Source of the DNA: a virus
Strand: one strand, 5' to 3'
Length of the DNA: 22,343 bases
IMG/VR virus record: IMGVR_UViG_3300030098_005075
Coordinates: 1 to 22,343 of that record
Shown: in pieces, positions 1,053 to 22,343 of the stretch
How positions within the stretch are numbered: position 1 is the stretch's first letter
Layout of the letters: every line of letters starts with the position of its first letter
The notes under the pieces: model-generated
What the model was told of the DNA's origin: nothing
What the model saw: only the letters and a program-made list of their open reading frames with translations
The model's database searches: none
Position numbers and translations under genes: made by a program

Positions 1053-1178
1053 TTATCCCTCCAGAAATTCTATTGCTTCTTTTAATCTCTTAATCTCATT
1101 ATGCCAATCATCGTCATAAATTTCAAGAGTTTTTATGACATCGGTAATTTTTTCAATTGCTTCCTCTCTCTTTAGCAT
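1053..1178 (-). CDS. 41-aa helical microprotein
   Basis: Not recognised. A 41-codon reading frame of mostly helical, charged residues (MLKREEAIEKITDVIKTLE, then IKRLKEAIEFLEG). AAGGGG lies 6 bases before the ATG, the stop TAA is followed without a gap by the GTG of the next gene, and the start overlaps the end of the lipoprotein gene by 26 bases. The overlaps, ribosome site and regular heptad-like pattern argue for a real gene despite its size. Function unknown. Confidence 0.5.
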   Translation of the reverse strand: MLKREEAIEKITDVIKTLEIYDDDWHNEIKRLKEAIEFLEG

Positions 1179-1458
1179 CCTTATCCCCTTCAATAAAATC
1201 TATATAACCTCTCCAATGCTCTTTACAATATGCCTTTATGTCCTTAGCCTTCCAAGCGTGTTCTTTTTGTTTCATCTTAGTACAAGCGGCTATAGCCTTT
1301 TCCCTAGTTTCTTCACTAAAAGCTGGCGACCTTCCGACCGTCTGATTAAAGTCTACTTGACTATTAATTTTACAACTAGAAAGGGATATCATCAACAGTA
1401 AAATCAGCATCGGGGTTAACATAATTTTCAAACCTATCATCGTCTGTAATATTCTCAT
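1153..1458 (-). CDS. predicted lipoprotein
   Basis: 101-residue precursor. A positively charged start (R2, K11) is followed by a hydrophobic core (residues 12-26) and a lipobox L26-S27-S28-C29, the usual signal peptidase II site. The mature part, about 72 residues, is hydrophilic and helical with two further cysteines (AACTKMK and AYCKEHW). It should be lipid-anchored in the host envelope. Small phage lipoproteins include outer-membrane spanins and superinfection blockers; neither identity is shown, and no partner inner-membrane spanin is evident. The ATG at 1458 has AAGGA 7 bases upstream. Its first 83 bases overlap, in another frame, the gene ending in an SSB-like tip. Confidence 0.6.
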   Translation of the reverse strand: MRILQTMIGLKIMLTPMLILLLMISLSSCKINSQVDFNQTVGRSPAFSEETREKAIAACTKMKQKEHAWKAKDIKAYCKEHWRGYIDFIEGDKDAKERGSN

Positions 1459-1543
1459 TTTTCATTCCTTCTTCAATTAAAAACTGTTCGTGTTCGTATG
1501 TTAATAAATCATCAAAATCAATCATTCTTAATACTTTACTCAT
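1376..1543 (-). CDS. acidic microprotein with SSB-like C-terminal tip
   Basis: 55-residue, strongly acidic protein. Its last residues, DFTVDDIPF, closely resemble the C-terminal tip of bacterial single-stranded DNA-binding protein (E. coli SSB ends DFDDDIPF), the peptide that docks many replication and repair enzymes. There is no OB fold, so it cannot be an ordinary SSB. Inference: a decoy or recruiter for SSB-tip-binding host enzymes such as RecO, PriA, exonuclease I or Pol III chi. AAGGGG and AAGGA precede the ATG; the start overlaps the previous gene by 8 bases (ATGAGTAA). The 3' end is embedded in the lipoprotein signal-peptide region. Confidence 0.6.
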   Translation of the reverse strand: MSKVLRMIDFDDLLTYEHEQFLIEEGMKNENITDDDRFENYVNPDADFTVDDIPF

Positions 1544-1709
1544 TCCTTAGCCCCTTGTTATTTATTACTCTACCCATATCAATGAGAGTCACGGCTTTGT
1601 CCTCTGATATGCCATAAAACTCTGCAAACTTTTTAACACTAAGATAATTATTAAAGAAGTCTAAATAAAATAATTCTAATTTAAGTAAAGCTTCGTTAAT
1701 TTCTCTCAC
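1536..1709 (-). CDS. small HTH-like protein (57 aa, GTG start)
   Basis: 57-residue protein with a hydrophobic helix (residues 8-22, LLKLELFYLDFFNNYL) followed by a segment like a short helix-turn-helix (residues 24-49, VKKFAEFYGISEDKAVTLID and then GRVI). It may bind DNA, or the helix may only pack the fold; no family is claimed. The GTG at 1709 has AAAGGGG 5 bases upstream and overlaps the previous gene's stop by 4 bases (GTGA); its own stop overlaps the next start by 8 bases. This chain of overlaps makes the reading frame credible. Confidence 0.55.
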   Translation of the reverse strand: MREINEALLKLELFYLDFFNNYLSVKKFAEFYGISEDKAVTLIDMGRVINNKGLRNE

Positions 1710-3889: not shown

Positions 3890-4324
3890 TTATGCAATAT
3901 GTCTTAAATCGCAAATATAGTAATCATTCCCGTCTTTAGTATAGTTCTCGCATTGTGTGGCTATACCCTTAGTTGTAGCAATGAATTTTCCTAACTTCTC
4001 GGACTTGACCTGATTAAGTGAAGCGTCAAAAGCCTTGACCATAAACCTCAATTCAGCATTCCTGTCAGAGTCAACAAAAAGTATGGAATGTTGATCATAA
4101 ATGTGGGCAAGTTGTTCAACCGTAGAATAATCAAACACCTGATTAATAACAGGCACTAAGATTGATAACTCCGACTCCCCTCTGTAAACTCCTTCGACCA
4201 CCTTAAATCTAAGACCGAATGTCTTAAGGTGATTCAAGACCTTCTTATGGTTCTCAAGGTTATCAGCTTTGGATAATCTAGATTGAAATACTGAAAATAT
4301 AACAAAAGCATCATTTTTTTTCAT
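3890..4324 (-). CDS. unrecognised conserved-looking protein (144 aa)
   Basis: First gene of the leftward cluster. The layout is an N-terminal strand (AFVIFSVFQS), an ENHKKVLNHLKTFG helix, then VVEGVYRGESELSILVPV, then SILFVDSDRNAELRF. The order 'EN...L...G, G-Y-x-G-x-x-E-x-S, xFVD-x-x-R-x-A-x-L' vaguely recalls DUF3293-like proteins, but I would not assign that. It is probably a soluble early protein of unknown function. The ATG at 4324 has AAAGGGG 5 bases upstream and a sigma70-type promoter just beyond. Confidence 0.7.
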   Translation of the reverse strand: MKKNDAFVIFSVFQSRLSKADNLENHKKVLNHLKTFGLRFKVVEGVYRGESELSILVPVINQVFDYSTVEQLAHIYDQHSILFVDSDRNAELRFMVKAFDASLNQVKSEKLGKFIATTKGIATQCENYTKDGNDYYICDLRHIA

Positions 4325-20510: not shown

Positions 20511-20861
20511 GTGTCTCATTACGCAAATTATGTCAAAGAGTTAAAAGATTCTACAGTAGTAGAAGATGAGTATGGTTTTTATCAATATAAACTATGCCCT
20601 CAACATCTTTTTATAGAGGAGCTTTATGTTGACTCTCGATATAGAGGATTTAGAGAGGCAAAAAGGTATATAAGAGAAATGGCGAAAGTAGCTAAAGATA
20701 ATGATTACACATACTTAATGGGTGCTATTGCAATAACCAACAAAAACCCATTAAAACTTTTAAGTTTGTACTTAAGAAATAATTGTAAACTACACTCTAC
20801 TGATAGGAATTATATTTATTTAACAATTAATATAGAAGATGCAGAAGCTTTGGAGGCTTGA
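20511..20861 (+). CDS. short GNAT-like protein
   Basis: 116 residues, shorter than a full GNAT (about 150). It keeps the core strand-loop-helix: LFIEELYVDSRYRGFREAKRY (residues 33-53), where R-Y-R-G-F-R resembles the acetyl-CoA loop, but the second glycine/alanine position is not well matched. It may be an acetyltransferase, or a degenerate GNAT used structurally. The GTG at 20511 has AGGAG 5 bases upstream. It lies between the nozzle gene and the internal-protein-like gene, 8 and 1 bases away. Confidence 0.6.
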   Translation: MSHYANYVKELKDSTVVEDEYGFYQYKLCPQHLFIEELYVDSRYRGFREAKRYIREMAKVAKDNDYTYLMGAIAITNKNPLKLLSLYLRNNCKLHSTDRNYIYLTINIEDAEALEA

Positions 20862-20862
20862 A

Positions 20863-22343
20863 ATGCAAATTATAAAACCAAAACTAGTCGGACCTAAATT
20901 ATGGGCAACAGGACCCCTTAAGTGCTTTAAAGGTACACCTTCACCTTCAAATAAAAGTACAAGTACAAGTACAAGTACAAGTACAAGTACAGGTACAGGT
21001 ACAGGTACAGGTACAAATGTTACTCAAACTCCTGAACCAACAGTACCAGTCAGAGATCCAGTATATGGAACTATAGTAAATGTTCCACAAAGTCAGTATC
21101 AAACTGCTATAAATACTGGAGCACTCCCAGTAGGAAATACAGGACAAGGTAATACAGGACAAGGAAATACAGGCTCATCTCCTCCCCCAGATACAGATCC
21201 AGCTCCAAGTGGAGGTCCTCCAAAAGGTGAAACTCCGCAACAAGCTATAGATCGTATGAAAAAAGAAAAAGCGGAAAGAGATAGACTAGCAAAACAAGCA
21301 GCAAAAGAACATGACGAAAGACAGAAAGCTAAAAGAAAAGCTGAATTAAAAAAACAACGACAAGCTTTAGACGCAAAAAGAGAAAAAGAGTTACAAGAAA
21401 AAACTGAAAGAGAGACAGACGCTCTTGACAATAGAAGTTTTTTAGAAAAAATTGCAGACACTCTCTACACTGGAGATGTTGCAGCTTTTGGTAGTAAACA
21501 AAAAGCTGGTATGTTAAGAAGAGACTATGATGATTCTAAGAAACAACGAGGTGTAGAAGAAGCTAGAAGACTTGGAAGACCTGTCATAATTGATGGTAAA
21601 CTATACAAACCTGGAATGCAAACTCCAGAAGAACAAGAGCAAGAAGCCGAGGAAGCCGCTGCTTATGGTATTAGTGTAGATCAACTAAGACAGGAATACG
21701 CAGAGCAAGGCACACCTGAAGAAAGAATGTCAAGACAAGTTAGGGATGCTCAAGAAGAAGAGTTAGCAGCTTCAAAAGGTTATAAAAGTGTTCAAGAAAT
21801 GCGAGAAGCTGAAGAAGCCGCTGGCGGTGGTACAGGGTTAATGATAGGTCAAGGTGAGATTCAAACTTTTCAAGACGAGCAAGAAAAAGAAAGACAAGAT
21901 AAAATTGCTCAAAAGCAAGGTTATATAGATGCTGAAGACAAACGACAAACTGAAAGTTATACTAATAGACAAAAGATGCTAAGAAAAAAAATGGCTGAAA
22001 TAGATTATAGTAGAGGTTTGATAGACGATGTTGAATGGGCTGATATGTACGGTAAAGATAGTATTCCTTCTGGGGTTACTGTACCTAATGTACTTTCAGG
22101 TGTTGGTTTAGGACTAGAAGGTTTAGGAGTTCCAGGGGCAAGTGCCTTAGGTACTTTAGCTGGATGGGGAACTGGTAAAGTATTGCAAGCTGCTGATATG
22201 CAAGCTACGAAAGATGATGCTGAACAAGCTTTAGCTGAAGAAGCTCAAGAAGAGTCTCCTGACTCTGTAGATCCAAGAGACGAAGAACCACAAGACGTTG
22301 ATCCTACTCCTCAACCTGGAGGAGGCGATCCTGTACAACAACA
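20863..22343 (+). CDS. partial repeat-containing coiled-coil protein (possible internal virion protein)
   Basis: Open from the ATG at 20863 to the window end: 493 codons seen, 3' end missing. GGAGG lies 6 bases upstream. Order: short basic start (residues 1-31); Ser-Thr/Gly-Thr dipeptide repeat (32-51); Pro/Gly-rich linker with NTGQG repeats (92-104); long charged coiled coil (about 126-188); further Glu/Gln/Lys-rich helical region (about 225-380); glycine-rich hydrophobic segment (about 405-447, GLGLEGLGVPGASALGTLAG) that could enter a membrane; then an acidic, Pro-rich tail. A membrane-active segment plus coiled coils after the tail genes suggests an ejection protein, but this is inference. 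Confidence 0.7.
   Translation, partial: MQIIKPKLVGPKLWATGPLKCFKGTPSPSNKSTSTSTSTSTSTGTGTGTGTNVTQTPEPTVPVRDPVYGTIVNVPQSQYQTAINTGALPVGNTGQGNTGQGNTGSSPPPDTDPAPSGGPPKGETPQQAIDRMKKEKAERDRLAKQAAKEHDERQKAKRKAELKKQRQALDAKREKELQEKTERETDALDNRSFLEKIADTLYTGDVAAFGSKQKAGMLRRDYDDSKKQRGVEEARRLGRPVIIDGKLYKPGMQTPEEQEQEAEEAAAYGISVDQLRQEYAEQGTPEERMSRQVRDAQEEELAASKGYKSVQEMREAEEAAGGGTGLMIGQGEIQTFQDEQEKERQDKIAQKQGYIDAEDKRQTESYTNRQKMLRKKMAEIDYSRGLIDDVEWADMYGKDSIPSGVTVPNVLSGVGLGLEGLGVPGASALGTLAGWGTGKVLQAADMQATKDDAEQALAEEAQEESPDSVDPRDEEPQDVDPTPQPGGGDPVQQ
20956..21015 (+). repeat. in-frame hexanucleotide tandem repeat
   Basis: Ten consecutive 6-base units: six AGTACA followed by four GGTACA, encoding (Ser-Thr)6(Gly-Thr)4. 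A switch between two unit types suggests expansion of two alleles. Copy-number change would alter length by two residues per unit without breaking the frame. Confidence 0.95.
21136..21174 (+). repeat. 15-base in-frame tandem repeat
   Basis: The unit AATACAGGACAAGG(T/A) occurs twice and is followed by a partial third copy, encoding NTGQG-NTGQG-NTG. It lies in the Pro/Gly-rich linker of the partial protein. Confidence 0.8.

Follow-up and report, generated by a model that had tools for sequence, protein, structure and literature searches.

A 22,343-nt stretch of marine phage DNA (the window) encodes a microprotein that ends in a near copy of the tip of bacterial SSB (SSB-Ct, DFDDDIPF) and has no detectable OB body. 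From its sequence, we tentatively propose that the microprotein is translated, probably early in infection, with the SSB-Ct copy as its working part, and that its most likely role is that of a decoy in the SSB-tip pockets of the host. An earlier note on this DNA had described an acidic 55-residue frame ending DFTVDDIPF, with the stop right after Pro-Phe; the frame is indeed present, at exactly 1376-1543, on the minus strand (the note gave no strand). The window copy reads MSKVLRMIDFDDLLTYEHEQFLIEEGMKNENITDDDRFENYVNPDADFTVDDIPF*, with a computed pI of 4.05 and 16 D/E for 4 K/R residues. As in the bacterial tip, Pro-Phe lies at the exact C-terminus and follows an acidic run, the residues being near-identical. 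The microprotein differs from bacterial SSB in having no detected OB fold, in its total length (55-61 aa) and in offering a single tip per chain unless it is oligomeric.

Table 1. Coordinates of the microprotein gene, its neighbours in the window and tip-bearing members of a second family
Feature	Position	Strand	Remarks
Microprotein gene, 55 aa, C-terminus DADFTVDDIPF*	1376..1543	-	conserved in L001, L002, L008
Codons DFTVDDIPF + stop	1376..1405	-	DF and DDIPF invariant in 4/4 genomes
Putative lipoprotein gene, 101 aa, signal peptide + lipobox LSSC	1153..1458	-	overlaps microprotein out of frame, 1376-1458
HTH-like gene, 57 aa, just upstream of microprotein	1536..1709	-	phrog_4907, 5.8e-9; stop overlaps microprotein start (ATGAGTAA)
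SAM-lyase family gene, head of leftward gene block	3890..4324	-	PF23780, 2e-16
phrog_1811-type tip-bearing protein	L221:4580-4801	+	
phrog_1811-type tip-bearing protein	L173:2619-2846	-	
phrog_1811-type tip-bearing protein	L234:6125-6349	-	
phrog_1811-type tip-bearing protein	L286:4001-4222	+	HTVC033P gp31

The ending is judged not to be a product of chance, because no ORF ending in DD[ILV]PF, or in the looser [DE][DE][IVLMF]P[FWY], occurred when 40 windows were simulated from the first-order base statistics of the real one, each simulation giving about 61 ORFs of at least 40 aa. To the claim that the frame has no OB fold we found no exception: the microprotein had no match in Pfam, NCBIfam or PADLOC, none that was meaningful in the PDB, and a PHROG match of 0.076 at best. 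Its AlphaFold model (mean pLDDT 59) shows helices only, chiefly a helix at residues 10-31 predicted with modest confidence, followed by a low-confidence tail. Of the two features that define PF00436 and other ssDNA-binding OB proteins with such a tip, the microprotein thus has the exact C-terminal D-D-x-P-F and not the OB domain.

A scan of IMG/VR for DFxxDDIPF followed by a stop returned at least 119 stretches, from which 71 representative proteins were classified. Among the matches listed, 28 representatives belong to PF00436 and 7 to SSB_1; others fall into PHROG ssDNA-binding families, a gp32-like family, DUF669 or the T7-type primase-helicases, and some have no assignment. Since the recognisable proteins ending in this way are mainly ssDNA-binding, the ending is, among viral sequences, a strong marker of SSB-type proteins. 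Of the tip-bearing families among the matches listed (from at least 119 stretches), that of the window microprotein alone is complete, shorter than 70 aa and convincing. Two other candidates for free-tip genes were discounted, L099 as a probable internal start and L121 as probably a downstream fragment. In one case a helicase bears an SSB-type tip: the T7-type primase-helicase at L030:5820-7451 (-) ends in DFFNDDIPF. A 73-aa ORF without a family match, at L183:3961-4182 (-), ends in SEDDIPF and is possibly a third type of free tip.

IMG/VR scans with the microprotein, the neighbouring putative lipoprotein and the phage primase returned the same three contigs each time (L001, L002 and L008). 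Each carries a copy of the microprotein gene; the products are 82, 73 and 62% identical to that of the window, two of them have in-frame insertions (of one residue and of five residues), and every copy ends in DFxxDDIPF*. DDIPF* is therefore at the C-terminus in 4/4 genomes, and homologues without it, which the earlier note had named as counter-evidence, did not occur among the three IMG/VR relatives found. That note had also asked whether the last residues are the most conserved. Indeed, the C-terminal tip is the best conserved stretch in the four genomes, while helix residues and length vary; the body is also conserved in part (MSKVL, DLLT, HE). A scan with the terminase found 22 further close relatives from the same phage group, whose contigs end before the microprotein region: they extend at most 6.5 kb upstream of the terminase in the loci read, and the window microprotein lies about 7.1 kb upstream. 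The microprotein profile was unmatched in 28 related contigs found via the terminase or a conserved 113-aa protein described below, of which 22 are too short to be informative. Among cultured phages, neither the whole window (megablast) nor the microprotein and lipoprotein (tblastn) had a match, and a species-genome scan with the microprotein profile gave none either. L012 was rejected as a relative of the lipoprotein, the similarity being a short chance match within an unrelated ORF.

The microprotein frame looks coding, judging by its start/stop overlap, its ribosome-binding site, the in-frame length differences and a lean of substitutions towards third positions. Its start overlaps the stop of the upstream gene (ATGAGTAA in the window, ATGA in L001), and AAGGGG lies about 7 bases ahead of it in the window. 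A GGGG-type ribosome-binding site precedes the microprotein in 3/4 genomes, L008 having CGGGA. The upstream HTH-like gene is present in L008 and missing from that place in L001 and L002. In L001, the start overlaps instead the stop of a gene for a secreted-protein-like product, again with a G-rich ribosome-binding site. The start signals are retained, in other words, although the upstream neighbour differs between genomes. In the part of the gene that overlaps no other frame, third positions account for 4/5 substitutions between the window and L001 and for 3/6 between L002 and L008.

The final 83 bases of the microprotein gene (26 full codons and the stop) also encode the N-terminal residues of the putative lipoprotein, an overlap absent from the earlier note; the LSSC lipobox spans the codons of the tip and the stop. 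The lipoprotein, which lies in the early block, had no family match and may, at a guess, be of the superinfection-exclusion type. Its gene is clearly coding as well, because 23/29 substitutions between the window and L001 outside the overlap fall at its third positions. Conservation of the tip could therefore have been a mere by-product of the lipobox. Among the four sequences compared, all from one phage group, the DDIPF-stop codons contain two substitutions, both in the single genome L002 (GAT to GAC and ATC to ATT). Both are third-position changes that are silent in the tip frame and alter the lipoprotein (I to T and S to F), which suggests that the lipoprotein frame alone is insufficient to explain conservation of the tip. 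With each lipoprotein sequence held and its synonymous codons randomised, the probability of DDIPF* was 1e-4 to 5e-4. The residue pair between DF and DDIPF varies (TV, VS, TA, TH), with a silent or conservative effect on the hydrophobic signal peptide. Upstream of the tip, most changes within the overlap alter the microprotein sequence, as expected if importance were limited to the tip and a few helix residues. The non-coding substitution pattern that would have told against the frame did not occur, and within the tip the pattern favours coding.

The surroundings fit the suggestion of an early module. The microprotein lies in a leftward operon that begins with a SAM-lyase-like gene, the type that phage T3 deploys first, to counter restriction, and runs into replication genes. 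In a 39-kb relative (G001), the leftward genes encode UDG-like, primase-like and DUF5906 helicase-like proteins, ThyX, ribonucleotide reductase, an exonuclease VIII-like nuclease and DNA Pol A. A PF00436 SSB was not found in the three records searched, and in as much of the microprotein's genomes as was examined no second convincing ORF carries an SSB-like tip. Between the exonuclease VIII-like and Pol A genes of G001 lies the conserved 113-aa protein (L004:14175-14516, minus strand), which ends without a tip and matches no family significantly; its AlphaFold model is unusable (pLDDT 36). By position, it might be the phage's own tail-less ssDNA-binding protein. With 27% identity, the terminase points weakly towards Pelagibacter phages, whereas Pol A, with 42%, points towards those of Flavobacterium. 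The Pelagibacterales SSBs examined end in DDEIPF or DDDIPF, which is compatible with the microprotein tip and is not evidence for the host. The last ORF (20839-22341) continues past the end of the window; close to its start, an in-frame Ser-Thr/Gly-Thr simple repeat is followed by GNTGQ-type repeats (about 20950-21170).

In the decoy mechanism that we infer, the N-terminal 30 or so residues would form an acidic helix and the tail would be flexible. The free carboxylate and ring of the last Phe, with the Asp residues ahead of it, would fit the SSB-Ct pocket of at least one genome-maintenance enzyme of the ExoI, RecJ, RecQ, RecO, PriA, DnaG or chi class. Pockets filled early in infection could deny host nucleases and repair enzymes access to SSB-coated phage DNA. 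Just these groups (the carboxylate and ring of the Phe and the side chains of the Asp residues) are what SSB-Ct pockets recognise; E. coli does not survive loss of the Phe, and the pocket is also pursued as an antibacterial target (PMC3594151). On its own, the free C-peptide of SSB is enough to delay the loading of RecA on SSB-wrapped DNA (PMC5605508). A lone tip would have to compete with tetrameric SSB, requiring high expression or self-association. In the open-access literature searched, no earlier account of a stand-alone SSB-tip microprotein was found. If the tip docks, it would give phages a cheap and general route, through one shared pocket, to a dozen or more DNA-maintenance enzymes. 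Anti-nuclease or host shut-off roles among unnamed small phage genes would then become testable.

We judged a decoy to be the most likely role, ahead of an adaptor to a phage protein and, in third place, docking on the phage replisome. As an adaptor, the microprotein would bind a phage protein such as the 113-aa one through its helix and recruit host SSB-interacting enzymes to phage DNA through its tip, the two proteins making up a split SSB. Partial conservation of the body agrees with this, as does the location of the tip-less 113-aa protein in G001; however, ssDNA binding by the latter is a guess, given its lack of a family match and poor model, and we consider the adaptor unlikely. The partner of the tip could also come from the phage itself, which has genes for a Pol A, a helicase and a primase. 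The microprotein shares strand and block with the primase and helicase genes, with Pol A further on, and one surveyed phage primase-helicase (L030) bears the same kind of ending. In T7, the acidic tails of gp2.5 and gp4, which have an aromatic end, dock on the polymerase; unlike the microprotein tip, they are carried on an ssDNA-binding or helicase body. That the microprotein has the bacterial SSB-Ct sequence, and not a generic acidic tail, makes docking on a phage replisome partner improbable in our view.

Ranked below replisome docking in probability is the possibility that the lipoprotein gene gave rise to the frame as a by-product, or that translation of the frame serves only to couple the lipoprotein, the tip being functionless. 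Reading of the lipobox over the tip codons and the mostly non-silent substitutions upstream of them fit such an origin, but the pattern is reversed within the tip codons, and the frame has its own ribosome-binding sites, in-frame indels, and start/stop overlaps that survive a change of upstream gene. Least probable, we think, is an acidic DNA mimic of the T7 gp5.9 kind that blocks a nuclease by charge, with an incidental tip. The microprotein is short and acidic, like gp5.9, a phage protein aimed at host DNA repair, as the microprotein may be; its acidic helix, predicted with moderate confidence only, is what it shows of a gp5.9-type parallel acidic coiled coil. Gp5.9 is not known to carry an SSB tip. 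Conservation in the microprotein is highest in the C-terminal tip, whereas helix residues and length vary; a DNA mimic would suit the body and not the conserved tip. T7 gp5.9 itself inhibits RecBCD by mimicking DNA with a coiled coil (PMC9836394).

A second scan (GATGAYATHCCNTTYTAA) found nine proteins of 73-76 aa with one common body, ending in DDIPF or DDDIPF; they were picked by their tip, and its conservation within the group is not inferable from them. Both members tested matched phrog_1811, a family of unknown function, and neither matched an ssDNA-binding family. Gp31 of the isolated Pelagibacter phage HTVC033P is a close copy (84.9%); its gene follows that of the DNA polymerase at a distance of about 4 kb downstream. 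The body is kept and the tip missing in HTVC106P, an uncultured Fussvirus, phage 023Pt_psg01 and T4-like cyanophages. The tip thus looks to have been gained by, or lost from, a non-SSB carrier in this family. Like the microprotein, the phrog_1811-type proteins of HTVC033P-like pelagiphages are small and helix-rich-looking and carry an SSB tip without an ssDNA-binding family match. They differ in that their sequence is unrelated to the microprotein and that the family exists elsewhere without the tip. Indeed, the window microprotein gave no local alignment to this family at E <= 100 and no phrog_1811 match, and so showed no sign of the family's body with its GEHPQ motif. It is quite possible that phages have more than once equipped small helical proteins that do not bind DNA with an SSB tip, the window family and the HTVC033P variant being two independent origins, and that this free-tip class hijacks or jams the SSB hub. 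HTVC033P has been isolated and its host is cultured, which makes the phrog_1811-type family directly testable.
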